Of a stretch of 64,000 bases of DNA, positions 13,689-46,673 are shown one piece after another. Within the stretch, counting starts at the first letter, position 1. Every line of letters begins with the position of its first letter. The notes under the pieces were generated by a model. It was not told where the DNA came from. It ran no database searches and worked only from the letters and a program-made list of their open reading frames with translations. Origin of the DNA: Salinisphaera orenii subsp. orenii MK-B5 (lineage in GTDB: Bacteria; Pseudomonadota; Gammaproteobacteria; Nevskiales; Salinisphaeraceae); contig NZ_AYKH01000034.1 in the NCBI RefSeq assembly GCF_003788635.1, forward strand, positions 62,001 through 126,000. The letters are read 5' to 3'. A program made the translations under genes and the position numbers.

Positions 13689-13908
13689 GGCGCTGCTCCG
13701 GCCGGAGAATAGGGAACGCGCGAGCGCACACCGGTACGCGCGTACGCTAAGAATTGGTTGTCCACCACCGGTTTTCAAGACGCCACCGCGCGCTGTCATG
13801 AAAGTTTCTTGGCGTATCCGCGCGCGGTGGCCGCGGGCCGGGCCGGCGCTGCTAATCTGACGCCCTTTGGGGCGGCGGCCGATAGGGCCGGAACGACAGG
13901 AGCAGCGC

Positions 13909-15540
13909 ATGGATTTCTTCTACAACCGGGCCGAAGATGTCGTCGACGAGGTCCTCGACGGCTGGAGCCGGCTGGCGCCGACCGCGCGCAGCGCGCGCGC
14001 CTCGGGCGTGCGCGTGATCGTCGATCGCGACTGGTCGCGCGATCACGTGGCCGTGCTCTCCGGCGGCGGCGCGGGCCACGAGCCCGCGCATGCGGGCTTC
14101 GTCGGTCGCGGCATGCTCGCCGCGGCCATCGCCGGCGATCTGTTCACCTCGCCGAGCGTGGCGGCGGTGCTCGCCGGCATCCGCGCGACCTGCGGGCCCG
14201 CGGGCTGCCTGCTGGTCATCAAGAACTACACCGGCGACCGGCTCAATTTCGGCCTGGCCGCCGAGCGTGCCCGCCGCGAGGGCTATCGGGTGCGCTCGGT
14301 TATCGTGGCGGACGATATCGCGCTGGCCGGCACCGACCAGCCGCGGGGGCTCGCCGGCACCGTGCTCGTGCACAAGATCGCGGGGCACGTGGCTGCCGAC
14401 GGGGCCGATCTGGACACCGTGGCCGACACCGCCCAGCGCGTCTGCGACGGCCTGTGTTCGATCGGCCTCGCCCTGTCCAGCGCCACGCTGCCCGGGCATG
14501 CCATCGATCCGCGCGCGCCGGAGCTCGGTCTGGGCATCCACAACGAACCGGGCGTCTCCGCGGTCGCGCCGAGGAATGCGGCCGAGGCCATGGCGCTCGC
14601 GCTCGAGCCGCTGCTCGCGGCCGCCGACGCCCGTTTCGGTGCGGACGTACCGACGGTGGTGCTGCTCAACAACCTGGGCAGCTGCTCCACTCAGGAGATG
14701 GGCGTGCTGCTCGACACGCTGCTGAGCCGACTGCCGGCGGCGCGCGTGGCCCGCCTGATCACCCCCGCACCGGTGATGACGTCGCTGAACATGCACGGTT
14801 TCTCGGTCACGCTGCTGCCCGCCCACGACGACTTCATCGAGGCGCTGGCCTCGCCGGTCGCGGCCATCGGCTGGCCCGGCATGCATATCCCGCATGCGGT
14901 CGAGACCTTCGAGCCCGAACTCGACACGCGGGAACCGGCACGGACCGGGCGTCGCGATGCGGCACGTGAAGATGCGATCCGCGCCGTGGTCGATGCCCTG
15001 ATCGACGCTCGCGACGAGCTGGATGCCCTGGATGCGAAGACCGGCGACGGCGACACCGGCGCGACGTTCGCCGCCGGCGCCCGGGCGGTCGCGGCCGCGC
15101 TGGACGCGGGCGCACTGGCCAGCGGTGACGACGCCGGTCTCGCCGAAGGCATCGGCGATATCCTCGCCCGCGACATGGGCGGCTCCGCCGGCGTGCTGCT
15201 GTCGATCCTGGCGACGGCGACCGGCGCCGGCCTGAACGAGGGCCGTGACTGGACCGCGGCGCTGGCTGTCGGGGTCGAGCGCATGCGCCACTACGGCGGT
15301 GCCGCGCCGGGCGATCGCACCTTGCTGGATGCGCTGATGCCGGCCATCGAGGCTCTCGCCGACAACGGCGATCTGACCGCCGCCGCGGCGGCCGCGCGCG
15401 CCGGCGCCGATGCCACCGCGAGGATGACCGTGGCCCATGCCGGGCGTGCCGCCCAGGTGCGCGCCGACGCCCTGACCGGCGTGACCGATCCGGGCGCCGA
15501 GGCGATTGCCCTCGTATTCGAGGCGATTGCCCCGAGCTAG
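13909..15540 (+). CDS. ATP-dependent dihydroxyacetone kinase (DhaK-DhaL fusion)
   Basis: This enzyme phosphorylates dihydroxyacetone (or glyceraldehyde or a related triose) with ATP. Residues 1-335 form the DhaK substrate domain, with GGGAGHEPAHAGFVG at 52-66, KNYTGD at 105-110 and His211 in GIHNEPG, the residue that binds the ketone covalently. Residues 350-543 form DhaL, with the Mg-ATP aspartates in DAKTGDGDTG (D375, D380, D382). At 543 residues it is a typical single-chain ATP-type kinase rather than a PTS-dependent DhaKLM. The ATG is preceded by AGGAG at good spacing. It sits immediately upstream of the sigma-54-controlled alcohol and aldehyde dehydrogenase genes, suggesting metabolism of glycerol-like polyols, but it lies before that promoter. 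It could also act in a sugar or tetrose branch. Confidence 0.9.
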   Translation: MDFFYNRAEDVVDEVLDGWSRLAPTARSARASGVRVIVDRDWSRDHVAVLSGGGAGHEPAHAGFVGRGMLAAAIAGDLFTSPSVAAVLAGIRATCGPAGCLLVIKNYTGDRLNFGLAAERARREGYRVRSVIVADDIALAGTDQPRGLAGTVLVHKIAGHVAADGADLDTVADTAQRVCDGLCSIGLALSSATLPGHAIDPRAPELGLGIHNEPGVSAVAPRNAAEAMALALEPLLAAADARFGADVPTVVLLNNLGSCSTQEMGVLLDTLLSRLPAARVARLITPAPVMTSLNMHGFSVTLLPAHDDFIEALASPVAAIGWPGMHIPHAVETFEPELDTREPARTGRRDAAREDAIRAVVDALIDARDELDALDAKTGDGDTGATFAAGARAVAAALDAGALASGDDAGLAEGIGDILARDMGGSAGVLLSILATATGAGLNEGRDWTAALAVGVERMRHYGGAAPGDRTLLDALMPAIEALADNGDLTAAAAAARAGADATARMTVAHAGRAAQVRADALTGVTDPGAEAIALVFEAIAPS

Positions 15541-15542
15541 AC

Positions 15543-15607
15543 GCAACGACTGTTGCGCCAAGTGGGACAGTTGTTGCGGCCGGGCGTCGCGATGCAACAG
15601 CTGTCGC
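15543..15607 (+). promoter_or_regulatory. Three 14-bp palindromic activator sites (candidate UAS)
   Basis: Three copies of a palindrome with derived consensus GCAACAGCTGTTGC occur in 65 bases: 15543-15556 (12/14 match), 15564-15577 (11/14) and 15594-15607 (13/14). Centre-to-centre distances are 21 and 30 bases, about two and three helical turns, so all three face the same side. They lie about 110-180 bases upstream of a sigma-54 promoter, the usual place for an enhancer. The AcoR-type activator encoded at 19612-21546 is the natural candidate to bind them. This is inference. Confidence 0.7.
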
Positions 15608-15648
15608 GCTGCACGGCGTTCGGGCAGCGATTCGTTCCGCTTAATAAA

Positions 15649-15661
15649 TATCAATAAATTC
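15649..15661 (+). promoter_or_regulatory. Candidate IHF site
   Basis: TATCAATAAATTC matches the IHF consensus WATCAANNNNTTR at all but the last position. It sits in an AT-rich island (about 15640-15690) unlike the surrounding GC-rich DNA, between the triple palindrome and the sigma-54 promoter, where DNA bending is typically needed. Confidence 0.55.
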
Positions 15662-15717
15662 ATTAAGATATTTGATTTTATTGTGCCGGTTTCGTGTCTC
15701 TTGATGTAATCCGCAAG

Positions 15718-15734
15718 CTGGCATGTGCCTTGCT
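15718..15734 (+). promoter_or_regulatory. Sigma-54 (-24/-12) promoter of aldA and PQQ alcohol dehydrogenase
   Basis: CTGGCATGTGCCTTGCT has the invariant GG (15720-15721) and GC (15732-15733) at the obligatory ten-base spacing. It matches consensus TGGCAC-N5-TTGC except for one position. Transcription would start near 15745, giving a leader of about 165 bases before the aldA GTG. It requires an AAA+ activator, and one is encoded at the far end of this module. Confidence 0.8.
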
Positions 15735-15910
15735 CCTGTCTCTGCTGAATACAAGGCGGCCATCGTGAGTTGCCACGAATAACAAGGCGTACGAGGAGAT
15801 TCCTTCAGCCCCACCGGTTTCGCTGCATCTGCGATGGCTGCTGGTAAGCCATGTCGCGCTCTTCCTCGCTCGTCTCATGTTTTGGATTGCAGCAAACAGG
15901 AGCGCACGAC

Positions 15911-17353
15911 GTGAACGATTCCGATATCTGTCAGAACTACATCGGCGGCGCGTTCGCGGCCGCCGGCGGCGAGACGATTGCCGTCGAGAACCCGGCGACC
16001 CAGACGACCCTCGGTCATATCCCGGACAGCGACGTGGCGACGGTCAATCGCGCTGTCGCCGCGGCGCGCGCGGCCCAGCCCGCCTGGGAAAAGCTTCCGG
16101 CCATCGAACGCGCGGGTTACCTGCGCCAGATCAGCGCCAGGTTGCGCGAACGCGTGGCCGAGTTCGCCGACCTCATAGTGCGCGAGCAGGGCAAGGTTCG
16201 CGCGCTTGCCGAAGTGGAGGTGAACTTCACCGCCGACTACATCGACTACATGGCCGAATGGGCGCGGCGTATCGAGGGCGAGGTGATCGAAAGTGACCGT
16301 GCCGGCGAGAGCATCTTCCTTCTGCGCAAGCCGGTCGGGGTGGTTGCCGGGATCCTGCCGTGGAACTTCCCGTTCTTTCTGATCGCGCGCAAGATGGCGC
16401 CGGCGCTGGTGACCGGCAACACGGTGGTCATCAAACCCAGCGAGGAAACGCCGCTCAACGCCTACGCGTTCGCCCGGCTCGTCGCCGAAACCGGTCTGCC
16501 GGCCGGCGTGTTCAATCTCGTGGGCGGCCGCGGCGCGAGCACGGGCGATTCCATGTGTTCGCATCCCGACGTGGGGCTGATCACTTTCACCGGCAGCGTG
16601 GCCACGGGCTCCCGCATCATGGCCACGGCCGCGAAAAACCTCACCCGGGTGAATCTGGAACTGGGCGGCAAGGCGCCGGCGATCGTGCTGGCCGACGCCG
16701 ATCTCGATCTGGCGGCGAAAGCCATCTGCGATTCGCGCACGATCAACACCGGCCAGGTCTGCAACTGCGCCGAGCGAATCTACGTGGAGAAAAGCGTCGC
16801 CGAGCCGTTGGCCGAGAAGATCGCCGCTCATCTGAAGGCCACACGCTATGGCGATCCATCGGCCGAGAATGAGCTCGACATGGGCCCGCTCATCAACAAG
16901 GCCGGGCTGGACAAGGTCGTGTCCATGGTCGAGCAGGCCAAGGCCGACGGCGCAACCGTGGTTACCGGTGGTAGCGCGTCCGATCTGGGCCAGGGCTATC
17001 ACTACCTGCCGACGCTGCTCACCGACTGCCGCGCCGACATGTCGATCATGCGTGACGAGATCTTCGGCCCGGTGCTGCCCATGCAGACCGTGGATTCGTT
17101 GGATGAGGCGATCGCGCTCGCCAACGACTCCGACTACGGCCTGACGTCGTCGATCTACACCACGAACATCAACGCTGCGATGCAGGCCGTGCACGCCCTG
17201 CAGTACGGCGAGACCTATATCAACCGCGAAAACTTCGAGGCCATGCAGGGCTTTCATGCCGGCCGGCGCAAGTCGGGCATCGGCGGCGCCGACGGCAAGC
17301 ACGGCCTCTACGAGTTCATGGAGACGCATGTCGTCTACATGCAGCACGGCTAA
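15911..17353 (+). CDS. aldA: AldA-type aldehyde dehydrogenase (lactaldehyde/glycolaldehyde)
   Basis: This is an NAD-dependent aldehyde dehydrogenase of 480 residues whose sequence follows E. coli AldA almost throughout. Examples are FTADYIDYMAEWARR near 106-120, GILPWNFPFFLIARKMAPAL near 147-166 and the end segment INRENFEAMQGFHAG. Catalytic residues are Glu250 (LELGGKAP) and Cys284 (GQVCNCAE). The family oxidises lactaldehyde, glycolaldehyde and similar short aldehydes to acids in the cytoplasm. The GTG at 15911 was chosen because AGGAG precedes it by eight bases. An in-frame ATG at 15851 would add 20 residues that do not match the family. It is the first gene of a two-gene unit with the PQQ dehydrogenase 23 bases downstream, driven by the sigma-54 promoter. 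Confidence 0.9.
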   Translation: MNDSDICQNYIGGAFAAAGGETIAVENPATQTTLGHIPDSDVATVNRAVAAARAAQPAWEKLPAIERAGYLRQISARLRERVAEFADLIVREQGKVRALAEVEVNFTADYIDYMAEWARRIEGEVIESDRAGESIFLLRKPVGVVAGILPWNFPFFLIARKMAPALVTGNTVVIKPSEETPLNAYAFARLVAETGLPAGVFNLVGGRGASTGDSMCSHPDVGLITFTGSVATGSRIMATAAKNLTRVNLELGGKAPAIVLADADLDLAAKAICDSRTINTGQVCNCAERIYVEKSVAEPLAEKIAAHLKATRYGDPSAENELDMGPLINKAGLDKVVSMVEQAKADGATVVTGGSASDLGQGYHYLPTLLTDCRADMSIMRDEIFGPVLPMQTVDSLDEAIALANDSDYGLTSSIYTTNINAAMQAVHALQYGETYINRENFEAMQGFHAGRRKSGIGGADGKHGLYEFMETHVVYMQHG

Positions 17354-17376: not shown

Positions 17377-19542
17377 ATGAAAATAAACAGATCCACCGCA
17401 ACTTTCGCCTGGCGGCGGCGAGCCATCGTCGCGCTGGCGCTGGCCGCTCTCTGGCAACCGGCCCTGTTCGCCGAAACCGGCGGCGGGGAGCGGCCGCCGG
17501 CCGATGTCGACGGCCAGCGCATCATCAACGCCGATGACGAACCCGGTAACTGGATGAGCACCGGGCGTACCTACGACGAGCAGCGCTATAGCCCGCTCGA
17601 CGACATCGACGCGGAGAACGTCGGCGAACTGGGTCTGGCCTGGCAGTACAAGCTGGACGTCGACCGCGGCGTCGAGGCCACCCCCATCGTGGTGGATGGT
17701 GTGATGTACACCACCGGGGCCTACAGCATTGTTTATGCCTTCGACGCGGCGTCGGGCGAATTGCTCTGGAAGCATGATCCCAAGGTCGATCGCACCCAGG
17801 CCGCCAACTTCTGCTGCGGCGTAATCAATCGCGGCGTGGCCGTGTGGAAGGGCAAGGTATTTCTCGGCACGCTCGACGGGCGCATGGTCGCCATCGACGC
17901 AGAGACCGGCGACGAGGCCTGGTCGGTCGATACCATCATCGATCACGATCGCAGCTACGGCATCACCGGCGCTCCGCGCATCGTCAAGGACAAGGTGATC
18001 ATCGGCAACAGCGGCGCCGAATTCGGCGTGCGCGGCTATATCACCGCCTACGACACCGAAACAGGCGACCAGGCATGGCGGTTCTTCACCGTGCCGGGTG
18101 ATCCGGCCGAGCCGCAGGAAAACGAAGCACTCGAGATGGCGGCCAAGACCTGGCACGGCGACGCCTGGATCGAACAGGGCGGCGGCGGCACCGCCTGGGA
18201 TTCCATGGCCTACGATCCGGATCTGAACCTGCTCTATGTCGGCGTTGGCAACGGCTCGATGTGGAACTACAAGGCGCGCTCGGATGCCAAGGGCGACAAC
18301 CTGTTCCTGTCGTCAATCGTCGCGATCAACCCGGACAACGGCGAGTATGTCTGGCATTACCAGACCACGCCGGGTGACGCCTGGGACTTCACTGCCACCC
18401 AGCATATGATCCTGGCTGATCTGGAGATCAACGGTGAACAGCGTGATGTGATCATGCAGGCGCCTAAGAACGGCTTTTTCTACGTACTTGATCGCGAGAC
18501 GGGCAAGATCATTTCGGCCGAGAACTATGTGCCCGTCAACTGGGCCGAGAAGATCGATCTCGAAACCGGCCGGCCGGTGTTCACCGATCACGCCAAGTAT
18601 TGGGAGCAAGATGAACCGGTGCTGGTCAAGCCGGGTTTCTGGGGCGGCCATAACTGGCATCCGATGTCCTACAACCCGAACAGCGGGCTGGTCTACATTC
18701 CCAAGCACGAGTTCGAAGTCACCTACAAGGATGTGAGCGATCCGGAATGGACGTCGCAGAAGGGCTTCTATCAGCTCGGCACCGAGGCCGCGGCCATGTC
18801 CGACGACGCCGAGGAGATGCAGGCCTGGGCGGATCGCTGGACCGGCGGACTGCTCGCCTGGGATCCGGTCAAGCAGGAGAAAGTGTGGGAAGTGCCCCAC
18901 AAGACCATCTTCAATGGCGGCACGCTATCGACCGCGGGTAATCTCGTGTTTCAGGGTACGGCCGACGGGCGAGTCGTCGCCTATCGGGCAACCGATGGCG
19001 AGAAGCTCTGGGAATCGCCGGCCAACAGCGGCGTCATGGCCGGTCCGGTGACCTACATGGCGGATGGCCAGCAGCACGTCACCTTCATGGTCGGCTGGGG
19101 TGGCGCGTTCTCGACGTTCGCCGGTGGCCAGTCCAAGAACGCTGGCGTGCGGCCCTATGCCCAGGTGCTCACCTTCAAGGTCGGCGGCGACGAGACACTC
19201 GCCGAGCCGGATTTCCCGCCACTGGCCAAGCCGGAACCGCCCGAACAAACGGCGAGCGCCGCGGATATCAAGGCCGGCAAGGATCTCATGAACGCAAACT
19301 GCAGCCAGTGTCACGGCATGAATGCGGCCAGCGGCGATGTCACCCCGGATCTGCGTCGGCTCTCGGCCGAGACCCACGAGCAGTTTGCGGCCATCGTCAT
19401 GGGCGCGCGTCTGAACAAGGGTATGCCGTCTTATGCGGGCGTCCTGGATCCCGAGGAAATCGAAAAGATACACGCTTACGTGATCAAGCGCGCCAACGAC
19501 CTGCTCGACGAGAACTACGGCGGCGAGCCGGCCAGCAACTGA
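17377..19542 (+). CDS. PQQ-dependent quinohaemoprotein alcohol dehydrogenase
   Basis: This is a periplasmic type II quinohaemoprotein of 721 residues. It oxidises alcohols to aldehydes with PQQ and passes electrons to its own haem c. A signal peptide (about 1-32) precedes an eight-bladed propeller. The adjacent Cys146-Cys147 pair (NFCCGVINRG) forms the unusual vicinal disulphide over PQQ. The catalytic Asp lies in TTPGDAWDFTATQ (331-342). The C-terminal cytochrome domain has the haem site CSQCH (642-646) with Met683 in NKGMPSYAG as the likely axial ligand. The product aldehyde could be taken on by the co-transcribed AldA. The substrate is unknown; short alcohols, diols or glycerol are all compatible. 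No PQQ biosynthesis genes are in the window. Confidence 0.92.
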   Translation: MKINRSTATFAWRRRAIVALALAALWQPALFAETGGGERPPADVDGQRIINADDEPGNWMSTGRTYDEQRYSPLDDIDAENVGELGLAWQYKLDVDRGVEATPIVVDGVMYTTGAYSIVYAFDAASGELLWKHDPKVDRTQAANFCCGVINRGVAVWKGKVFLGTLDGRMVAIDAETGDEAWSVDTIIDHDRSYGITGAPRIVKDKVIIGNSGAEFGVRGYITAYDTETGDQAWRFFTVPGDPAEPQENEALEMAAKTWHGDAWIEQGGGGTAWDSMAYDPDLNLLYVGVGNGSMWNYKARSDAKGDNLFLSSIVAINPDNGEYVWHYQTTPGDAWDFTATQHMILADLEINGEQRDVIMQAPKNGFFYVLDRETGKIISAENYVPVNWAEKIDLETGRPVFTDHAKYWEQDEPVLVKPGFWGGHNWHPMSYNPNSGLVYIPKHEFEVTYKDVSDPEWTSQKGFYQLGTEAAAMSDDAEEMQAWADRWTGGLLAWDPVKQEKVWEVPHKTIFNGGTLSTAGNLVFQGTADGRVVAYRATDGEKLWESPANSGVMAGPVTYMADGQQHVTFMVGWGGAFSTFAGGQSKNAGVRPYAQVLTFKVGGDETLAEPDFPPLAKPEPPEQTASAADIKAGKDLMNANCSQCHGMNAASGDVTPDLRRLSAETHEQFAAIVMGARLNKGMPSYAGVLDPEEIEKIHAYVIKRANDLLDENYGGEPASN

Positions 19543-19611: not shown

Positions 19612-21546
19612 TCAGTGGCGGTATTTGGGGGCGACGATATCGAGCCGCGCCATGCGCCGATAGATCGTCGATCGCGCTACGCCGAGTTCACGCGCGACTT
19701 GGGTGACGTTCCACTGGCAGCGCCTGAGTCGCGCGATCAGCGGTGCATGCGATGAATCGGGTTCGGCATCGGCCGGCCCGGGCGAAACGGAGGATGTTGC
19801 CGTGCCCGGCGCGTTGGCCGCAGTATCCCGAGCGCTATTCGGCAGATCGTTGGCGGTGATGCCGTGTTCGTCGGCCAGTGCCAACGCAAAGCGCAGCACG
19901 TTACGCAGCTCGCGGATATTGCCCGGCCAGTCGTGGGTGTGCAGCACGGCTCGGGCTTCGGCCGTGATCGATGCGGGCGCGGCCAGCGCCCGGGCTTCGG
20001 TGACGATCACACGATCGATCAGCCAGTCGAGATCGGTTCTCTCGCGCAGTGCCGGCAGGGTCAGCGTGCCCCCGGCCAGGCGATAATAGAGATCCGCGCG
20101 GAACGTGCCGGCAGCGATTCGCGCTTCGATATCGCGATGGGTCGCAGTGATCACGCGGACATCGAGTGCGATCGGCGTGTCGCTTCCCAGCGGCAGAACC
20201 TCGCGCTCGGCAAGCACGCGCAGCAGCCGCGTCTGAAGATCGAGCGGCATGTCGCCGATTTCGTCGAGAAAGAGCGTGCCGCCGTCGGCTTGTACGAACC
20301 GACCGGTCATGCCGTCGCGGCGCGCGCCGGTGAATGTGCCGGCGGCATAGCCGAACAACTCGCTTTCGATCAGCGACTCCGGCAGCGCGGCACAGTTGAT
20401 CGCGACGAACGGCTGGTTGGCGCGCGGGCTGGTGGCGTGTATGGCACGGGCTAGCACTTCCTTGCCACAGCCGGTTTCACCCTGGACCAGCAGGTCGATG
20501 GGTTTAGCCGCGAGCCGGCGCGCTTGATCGGTCAGGGCCATCATCCTCGGATCGTCGCCCGCCATGGTGTGTAGCGCGTCGGCGCGATGCGATGCGATCG
20601 GTACCCGTGTCGCGGCGGCGCGGGCACGGCGTGGCTGTGTCAGCGCAGCGTGGAAATCGGCATCGTGCCAGGTCGTCAGCCGGCCGAGGCTTTCGGCCTG
20701 GCGTAATGCATGCACGCGATCGCGGCCGTCGCGAAAGAGGGCGCCGATGCCGTGGCCCACGACGCCGCGTTCGGCGTGCGGATCGAAGAGTCGGCGCGCG
20801 CCGGTATTGGCACCCACGACGCACCCGTCGTCGTCCAGCGCGAGCATCAGATCGGCGTGATGGTCGACTAAAGCCGCCGAACGGCTCAGGCGCAGCAGCC
20901 AGCGATCGCGAAAATGATGGCCGAAATAGCTGTCTTCGATCAGGCGTGCATAGAGTGAGGTCAGATGGCGCGCGAGGTGTTGGCTGTCCCGTGCACCCGG
21001 CATGGAAAGTGCCGAGATATCCAGCACCGCGGCCACGCGACCTTGTGGATCGCGCAGCGGCGCTGCGGTGCAGCTCAGGTCCAGGTTGCCGGCGTAAAAG
21101 TGATCGTCGCGGTGACAGGTCAGCGTGCGTTGTTCGGCAATACAGGTGCCGATGCCGTTGGTGCCGACGGCGGCCTCGTTCCAGACCGTGCCGGTGCGAA
21201 GCCCGGCTGTAGCGAATGGGGAATCGGCGCGGGTGTCGCCCAAGCATTCGAGAGTTGCGCCCTGGGAATCGGCGAGCATGGTGATGTAGCCCAGTGGCGC
21301 GATGTGCGGATACAGCTGGTGCATGCCGGCCCGAGCGACGTCGAGATAATGGCCCACTCGTTCGCGTCGCTCGCGCAATTGGGCCGCATCCAGCTCCGGA
21401 ATGCCCGGATTGCGCCCGGGGGCCAACCCGTGGTCGCCTGCACAGCGCAGCCACGACTGCTGTATCAGTCGCTCGCCCTGTTCCTGCGCGACGGCCTGCC
21501 CGGTATCGAGCACCCGGCGGATGATTTGGCTGTGAGGCTGGGTCAT
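19612..21546 (-). CDS. AcoR-type sigma-54-dependent transcriptional activator
   Basis: This 644-residue protein has an AcoR-like N-terminal GAF-type sensor region (about 50-200), an AAA+ sigma-54 interaction domain (about 325-545) and a C-terminal Fis-type helix-turn-helix (NVTQVARELGVARSTIYRRM, about 610-630). The Walker A motif is GETGCGKE and Walker B is GGTLFLDEIGD. The sigma-54 contact loop reads GTFTGA instead of the usual GAFTGA. Such activators respond to alcohols, acetoin or related metabolites. It faces the aldA/PQQ-dehydrogenase unit, whose promoter has the sigma-54 elements it needs. ATG 21546 was preferred because it gives a family-like N-terminus. A GTG at 21579 would add 11 residues. 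Neither has a strong ribosome-binding site. Confidence 0.9.
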   Translation of the reverse strand: MTQPHSQIIRRVLDTGQAVAQEQGERLIQQSWLRCAGDHGLAPGRNPGIPELDAAQLRERRERVGHYLDVARAGMHQLYPHIAPLGYITMLADSQGATLECLGDTRADSPFATAGLRTGTVWNEAAVGTNGIGTCIAEQRTLTCHRDDHFYAGNLDLSCTAAPLRDPQGRVAAVLDISALSMPGARDSQHLARHLTSLYARLIEDSYFGHHFRDRWLLRLSRSAALVDHHADLMLALDDDGCVVGANTGARRLFDPHAERGVVGHGIGALFRDGRDRVHALRQAESLGRLTTWHDADFHAALTQPRRARAAATRVPIASHRADALHTMAGDDPRMMALTDQARRLAAKPIDLLVQGETGCGKEVLARAIHATSPRANQPFVAINCAALPESLIESELFGYAAGTFTGARRDGMTGRFVQADGGTLFLDEIGDMPLDLQTRLLRVLAEREVLPLGSDTPIALDVRVITATHRDIEARIAAGTFRADLYYRLAGGTLTLPALRERTDLDWLIDRVIVTEARALAAPASITAEARAVLHTHDWPGNIRELRNVLRFALALADEHGITANDLPNSARDTAANAPGTATSSVSPGPADAEPDSSHAPLIARLRRCQWNVTQVARELGVARSTIYRRMARLDIVAPKYRH

Positions 21547-21779
21547 GGTGGCTTGTATTTCTGCCGTGAGGGTCTGCACCGTGTTGTACTATTCCGGCTG
21601 CCGGGCGCCGCTGCAAGCCACGGTTGATGTTGTGAGTCGGCTTGGCAGCCCGTTCCGCGCGATCCAGCGTCCTAGCGCAATGTGATCTTCCATGCCTGTC
21701 TGGGGTAATGCTTACGTCAGTCCAGCCTTGCGTACTTAAATGATGCCGCATTGGACGCGACTGTCGGGAGGCGCGCACA

Positions 21780-22255
21780 TCAACTCGCTTCAAGCTTTCG
21801 TTCGACGCAACCGAGCCGGGCCTGGTCGAAGAACATCGTGTCGCCCACGAAAAGCTCGGAGCCCGAGCACGACGTGGGCCACTGTTGCCTCGGTAGCCGT
21901 GTGGCGGATCTGTTTGGCTGCGGTAAACCCGGCTCGGACGGGAAAACCGTCGACCTTGAGACCGGCCGCGGCAGCGGCGCCGTGATTGCTGCGAGGTTGA
22001 CAGGCCTCGGTTGCCTACCCGCAAGGCGTGGAACACGGCGTCGACGTGGGCCGGCAACGCCGGTGTGTTCCGGTAGGCCATCGCCCCGCGCATCGTCGCT
22101 TGATGGAAGCGACGTTGTTAACGCCTGTCCAATGCCTTGGACGCCCGCAAGACCCTGCATGTCGGTGCGCCTCTGGCGACGAGGGGTGGCCGGAGTGGCC
22201 AGGGTGGGGTGGTCGGTGAAATGTTGCCGATAAGCTTGAACAAGTACCAAGAGCC
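21780..22255 (-). pseudogene. Decayed 2-hydroxychromene-2-carboxylate isomerase (DsbA-like) gene
   Basis: No single frame covers this stretch, but pieces in several minus-strand frames read in order as one family. They are MQGLAGVQGIG-like sequence near 22150, then MRGAMAYRNTPALPAHVDAV (about 22105-22045) and DAVFHALRVGNR. Next come GLKVDGFPVRAGFTAAKQIR and TATEATVAHVVLG in another frame (about 21985-21870). Finally LFVGDTMFFDQARLGCVERK and a stop at 21780-21782 appear in a third frame. This order is the C-terminal two thirds of 2-hydroxychromene-2-carboxylate isomerase, a thioredoxin-fold glutathione-dependent enzyme of aromatic degradation. At least two frameshifts and loss of the 5' third mark it as dead. 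Identification is from memory of the family pattern. Confidence 0.7.
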
Positions 22256-46655: not shown

Positions 46656-46673
46656 GAAGCAAGCGCTGTGCCA
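46656..46673 (-). promoter_or_regulatory. Sigma-54 (-24/-12) promoter of the urea operon
   Basis: Minus-strand TGGCACAGCGCTTGCTTC carries GG (46672-46671) and GC (46660-46659) with exactly ten bases between, matching TGGCAC-N5-TTGC fully. The start would fall near 46647, about 23 bases before the atzF ATG. Urea use is commonly under NtrC/sigma-54 nitrogen control, which this would provide. Confidence 0.75.

Follow-up and report, generated by a model that had tools for sequence, protein, structure and literature searches.

A putative palindromic operator and sigma-54 promoter upstream of aldA and a PQQ alcohol dehydrogenase gene in Salinisphaera orenii

Results

Genes and control elements of the locus

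The window, by which we mean the whole stretch of 64,000 nucleotides analysed (G000:C34:62001-126000), carries a gene for a dihydroxyacetone kinase followed by aldA, a gene for a PQQ-dependent alcohol dehydrogenase and, convergent to these enzyme genes, a gene for a sigma-54 activator (Table 1). AldA passes the NCBIfam model NF007497 (755.3 bits against a cut-off of 500), and the dehydrogenase passes TIGR03075 (654.2 bits against 480.05), contains the cytochrome c domain PF13442 and has as its best PDB match 1yiq, which we take to be ADH-IIG. In the activator both PF00158 and HTH_8 score above cut-off, while no NCBIfam model did so among 25 of the 26 listed. The first-pass annotation had presented this protein as the sole AAA+ sigma-54 activator in the window. 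It is the only PF00158 match on the contig but not in the genome, which has 16 (11 of them above 160 bits) and encodes three AcoR-type proteins at E <= 1e-100. The label AcoR-type is used here because an aco-like operon, with operator sites arranged in the same way, adjoins the gene of the sister activator at locus L012. The genome has one PF04552 match, on contig C40, corresponding to rpoN.

Table 1. Features of the aldA locus, in window coordinates.
Feature	Position	Strand	Remarks
Dihydroxyacetone kinase (Dak1-Dak2)	13867-15540	+	Upstream neighbour; kept also where the unit is absent
Putative operator site A, GCAACGACTGTTGC	15543-15556	.	11/12 to GCRACA-N2-TGTYGC; orthologous sites in G003, G004, G005
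Putative operator site B, GGGACAGTTGTTGC	15564-15577	.	11/12 to GCRACA-N2-TGTYGC; 21 bp from A
Extra half-site CGTCGC	15585-15590	.	Precedes site C; TGTYGC in three same-genus orthologues
Putative operator site C, GCAACAGCTGTCGC	15594-15607	.	12/12 to GCRACA-N2-TGTYGC
AT-rich island	15641-15682	.	IHF-like TATCAATAAATTC at 15649-15661, 8/9 specified positions
Sigma-54 -24/-12 element, CTGGCATGTGCCTTGCT	15718-15734	+	GG 15720-21, GC 15732-33, ten bases between
aldA, AldA-type aldehyde dehydrogenase	15911-17353	+	Begins at a GTG that aligns with the orthologues' ATG
PQQ quinohaemoprotein alcohol dehydrogenase, C-terminal cytochrome c	17377-19542	+	TIGR03075, PF13442
Sigma-54 enhancer-binding activator	19612-21579	-	GAF, AAA+, Fis-type HTH; convergent to enzyme genes

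Three 14-bp palindromes had been reported upstream of aldA, and these are present between the kinase gene and aldA, spaced start to start by 21 bp (A to B) and 30 bp (B to C), although GCRACA-N2-TGTYGC describes them better than the consensus first derived. The arms form five, four and five self-complementary pairs out of six in A, B and C respectively, and A and B together make up a near-mirror pair (15543-15577). An exact match to GCRACA-N2-TGTYGC occurs as a single copy in the 3.67-Mb genome, namely site C at 15594, and as such we claim no further regulon targets. Taken from the window alone, the trio of palindromes is not significant. At up to three mismatches the earlier consensus gave 6 matches in the window where 3.03 were expected, a number reached by 11 of 100 shuffles; when the 64 kb was shuffled with its dinucleotides preserved, 88 of 200 versions held a triple equally palindromic and mutually alike; and the first cluster statistic, with a mean of 52.8 clusters per shuffle, was uninformative. 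The comparative data given below make the trio clearly real. We also considered the inward dyad TGTYGC-N3-GCRACA as the true operator, and rejected it because, although conserved in the genus, it was not seen in the other family of the order, where the outward 14-mer is exact; with at most one mismatch, the dyad occurs at 74 genomic positions. Elsewhere in the window, TGGCACRNNNNTTGCW has a perfect match on the minus strand at 46658-46673, namely TGGCACAGCGCTTGCT.

Sigma-54 promoters conform to the consensus context TGGCAYRNNNNTTGCW, and the GG/GC pair of the element upstream of aldA has the ten-base spacing in this context. The first-pass annotation had described the element correctly, and transcription is predicted to start near 15745. 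The near-perfect IHF site that had been proposed within the AT-rich island fared less well: the match at eight of nine positions exists, and that score is reached by only 10 of 511 window tiles of 125 bp, but it is also reached by 415 of 2000 shuffles of the AT-rich stretch itself, and seven orthologous regions score 8/9 in two cases and 6-7 of 9 in five. The site thus appears weak, no better than composition would give, and an AT-rich, perhaps bent, stretch may serve instead; three HU/IHF-type proteins are encoded in the genome. The 5' leader of aldA (15750-15915, and likewise L138, L139 and L180) holds a genus-conserved GCGGC..GCCGC-like hairpin followed by GCGT(T/A)CGAGGAGAT. These blocks are kept although the gene start is not close behind, and may be left over from the ribosome site of an extra first gene, as seen in the other family.

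Operator, promoter and activator across the order

The orthologue scan had been set as a refuting test of the palindrome, and its outcome favours the palindrome. When 85 genomes of the order were searched with aldA at E <= 1e-205, 17 of them yielded a total of 20 matches; 19 of these matches were examined, the G007 gene being dropped because its contig ends inside it. Every one of the 14 aldA genes with at least 70% identity is preceded, within 2 kb, by a -24/-12 element, and for 13 of them there is also a palindrome of at least 11/12, the fourteenth (G004) having three 10/12 sites. By comparison, none of the five aldA genes of 67-69% identity (in G001, G006, G008 and G076, and the third copy in G063) has either a -24/-12 element or a palindrome of at least 11/12, one having a 10/12 site. 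As background, 46 of 998 tiles of 2 kb contain a site of at least 11/12, the true loci being counted in. Because the loci are related (G028, G059, G049 and G074 belong to one genus), these counts are not independent and we attach no p-value to them.

The activator follows the same division. At E <= 1e-150 it is found in 12 genomes, all among the 13 with a closer aldA; the exception is G063, whose assembly is 86% complete and broken into 610 pieces. The control genomes gave no activator orthologue at this threshold, one of them, G063, being fragmentary. A PQQ dehydrogenase is likewise missing at E <= 1e-60 from the controls G001, G006 and G008, and the contrast therefore ties the operator to the whole unit rather than to the activator alone.

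G003 and G004 have the complete gene order kinase, aldA, PQQ dehydrogenase and convergent activator, which in G005 is spread over two contigs; in G007 a short contig carries aldA and the dehydrogenase, and the activator is found on a separate contig. In G003, G004 and G005 sites A, B and C lie at 0, 21 and 52 bp (0, 21 and 51 in the window) and are joined by a -24/-12 element. Three genomes of the other family (G028, G059 and G049) have two perfect copies of GCGACA-N2-TGTCGC 52 bp apart, then -24/-12; the pair in G074 is also 52 bp apart, with one exact and one 11/12 site, that in G025 is 21 bp apart (exact and 11/12), and that in G039 consists of two 11/12 sites 31 bp apart. The first of the G062 loci has one palindrome followed by -24/-12. 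An extra gene separates the operator from aldA in G049 and G025. In G005 the matches to the PQQ dehydrogenase (L180 394-2534) and to the activator (L140 17615-19542) each fall in two pieces, possibly through frameshifts or assembly errors.

Presence or absence of the unit as a block

Operator, promoter, enzymes and activator form a set that is either there or missing as a whole. Genome G012 matches the window at 98.1% identity along 3143 bases that end at 15509, shortly ahead of the stop codon of the kinase gene, and then has nothing of the unit: no aldA at E <= 1e-180, no exact operator, activator paralogues of only 44% identity and PQQ dehydrogenases of at most 42%. Its kinase gene, like that of G009, is followed instead by a gene resembling what is presumably a 2-hydroxychromene-2-carboxylate isomerase. 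This isomerase-like gene lies beyond the activator in G003, G005 and G007, and similarity between the window and G012 resumes at 21780, at 69%. The unit is thus missing from between the kinase gene and the isomerase-like gene of G012, from which it follows that its parts travel together, a pattern that may reflect either gain or loss. Among 13 genus relatives, a PQQ dehydrogenase of 88-89% identity is found only in G003, G004, G005 and G007, and the same four carry the activator. At 21769-22241 the window itself has a degraded isomerase-like copy, with near full-length matches in G003, G005, G007, G009 and G012.

Paralogous activators

The sites might instead be bound by another regulator, for instance one of the paralogous activators encoded on contigs C2 and C23, whose HTH domains are related to that of the window's activator. 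The promoter of the C2 paralogue has conserved GCAACA and GTGACA blocks together with a -24/-12-like TGGCCTGANNCTTGC, and these shared blocks make cross-talk between the paralogue and the operator of the window possible. However, G001, G006 and G008 hold paralogues of 41-43% and aldA genes of 67-69% identity yet have no 11/12 site upstream, and G012 keeps its two 44% paralogues in the absence of both the window's activator and the operator. We therefore regard recognition of the sites by a different regulator as quite improbable. In the paralogue's divergent promoter region (L147 10960-11460), TGGCCTGANNCTTGC, TGCAACA and GTGACAGT are kept in all six aligned genomes; the region contains related half-sites and no clear copy of the 14-mer, and its blocks appear to constitute a second, related type of operator.

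Loci outside the order

For a broader scan we defined the layout as a pair of sites with a spacing of 20-22, 30-32 or 51-53 bp and a -24/-12 element after them, and applied it to 2.2 Mb, comprising the window and 121 of 247 loci (the other 126 being mostly short pieces or overlaps). The layout occurs 23 times at 14 loci, which are 12 of the 14 aldA loci together with L019 and L012, and at no other scanned locus; its settings were picked with most loci already known, and neither of the G062 loci is detected by it. In reversed sequence it does not occur at all. It is against these data that chance has to be weighed. The frequency with which shuffled sequence yields an equally good triple would allow the palindromes to be accidental neighbours of a real or chance promoter. 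Sites lie upstream of all 14 close orthologues and of none of the 5 less similar genes, which, with the empty reversed scan, makes this reading hardly credible.

The tree of the activators has 55 rows, with L019 entered twice and flags on long branches. In it a single clade, with support of 100/97, unites the 13 activators from the order that carry the operator-bearing label, among them a third G062 activator with no assigned target. L011 and L012 are sisters to this clade, and L019 falls elsewhere. The activator loop, usually GAFTGA, reads GTFTGA in the window's protein and in all 13 rows of this clade, and GSFTGA in L019 and L060; in the two paralogues of the S. orenii genome it is GAFTGA (C2) and NAFTGA (C23).

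Support for the association of operator and unit is thinner outside the order. Among 80 activator-relative loci from named genomes, three have an aldA of more than 55% or a PQQ dehydrogenase of more than 50% identity, and only one of these three, L019 of Pseudomonas pisciculturae, has the palindrome. There the activator is 41% identical and convergent, the gene order is PQQ dehydrogenase then aldA, and sites of 9/12 and 12/12 lie 21 bp apart upstream of these genes in the full layout. Locus L060 of Stutzerimonas stutzeri has the enzymes, an activator and -24/-12, but no 10/12 site within 2 kb upstream, and L028 of Denitromonas has no 10/12 site anywhere in the locus.

The mirror pair of sites A and B

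The near-mirror relation of A and B raises the question of whether the pair acts at the level of RNA, either at the 3' end of the kinase gene (which stops at 15540) as a terminator or stabiliser, or as a leader element, rather than as a protein site. In four same-genus genomes paired positions make up 96.7% of 60 cells, and in 4 of 15 pairs both sides have changed, a degree of covariation reached by 2 of 500 shuffles, with slid controls far lower, and resting on four related sequences; the mirror even extends to the free spacer bases (AC/GT, TG/CA, TC/GA and TC/GA). The hairpin between A and B is moreover the predicted fold in G003 and G004. The best fold of the window, however, pairs B with C; under a 10-pair hairpin test, the A-B stem holds up in G003, G004 and G005 but not in the window. 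In other genera the palindromes occur with no kinase gene alongside, and a hairpin of A and B would leave site C and the -24/-12 element unexplained. In the ten genomes with a kinase gene that is not followed by the unit, the next 420 bases hold no 11/12 site and no such hairpin (only 64 bases being available in G013, and G008 having a 10/12 site and G011 an unrelated hairpin). This, together with the lack of any terminator-like site, disfavours a kinase terminator, and an RNA hairpin in place of a protein site is in our estimate highly improbable. Rfam gave no match in 15500-15950.

The covariation could also have arisen by correction between inverted repeats. A further but unlikely reading is that A and B in this genus form a 35-bp composite that would serve both as operator DNA and as a structure tuning the operon, either a cruciform or a hairpin in the transcript, inside a self-contained block gained or lost as a unit.

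Discussion

It is highly likely, judging from the sequence elements and their conservation, that the region 15543-15734 is the control region of an aldA/PQQ alcohol dehydrogenase operon, in which an AcoR-type activator binds the palindromes and drives sigma-54-dependent transcription. The first-pass annotation had named the palindrome as the DNA target of such a regulator, and the co-occurrence of operator, activator and aldA across the order argues for this assignment. From what is established for enhancer-binding proteins, we infer that the product of the convergent gene would act as a one-component AcoR-type regulator whose dimers bind GCRACA-N2-TGTYGC sites placed approximately whole helical turns apart, mostly at 21, 30-31 or 51-52 bp. 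Sensing of an alcohol, diol or aldehyde by the GAF region would lead the activator to assemble, and it would then reach the promoter by looping over the DNA in between (site C and the -24 element are some 110 bp apart in the window) and use ATP to open the sigma-54 polymerase held at TGGCATGTGCCTTGC. The identity of AldA and the type of dehydrogenase, with its best PDB match of 1yiq, hint weakly at a short diol, for example 1,2-propanediol, as a possible inducer.

This reading would provide a DNA target, with a consensus and rules of spacing, for one clade of AcoR-type activators, which in all likelihood control PQQ-dependent alcohol oxidation. It ties the operator to an aco-like operon, makes the regulon predictable from sequence, and offers a possible sensor part for alcohols or diols.

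The operator is new, while the switch is of a known kind. String searches of open-access texts for the operator returned nothing relevant, subscription papers and figures being outside the scope of the search, a search of the open-access literature for AcoR with quinoprotein found no paper, and one that treats PQQ with AcoR does not concern this operator. By enzyme alone, the system can be likened to qgdA (ADH-IIG) of Pseudomonas putida HK5, in that 1yiq is the best match of the window's dehydrogenase; AgmR is involved in the regulation of qgdA in that organism. In its control region the system resembles locus L012 of Azoarcus sp., where a sister activator of 47% identity is accompanied by CCGACGGCTGTCGC and GCGACAGGCGTCGC 21 bp apart. 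The layout there is found on both strands, with -24/-12 on both sides, between a dehydrogenase operon and a porin-like gene, and in contrast to the window the target reads as an operon of the acetoin/pyruvate dehydrogenase type, by names taken from translations.

Among characterised systems, BmoR and its promoter PBMO in Thauera butanivorans are similar in combining an alcohol-responsive enhancer-binding protein with an inverted repeat upstream of -24/-12. BmoR differs from the window in having a single hairpin site, drawn 193 bp upstream, whose removal is reported to have left a response much as in the wild type (PMC8899819). The motif of clostridial AdhR is a different one (TGT and ACA with a spacer of 10-12 bp; PMC6615313) from GCRACA-N2-TGTYGC, and AdhR of Clostridium beijerinckii, acting with SigL, serves different enzymes. 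In its architecture it nonetheless resembles the system proposed here, since it too is a GAF-containing enhancer-binding protein with three sites, a sigma-54 promoter and an alcohol dehydrogenase target. AdhR and SigL control adhA1 and adhA2 from three upstream sites, with looping proposed to be helped by HU (PMC7017808).
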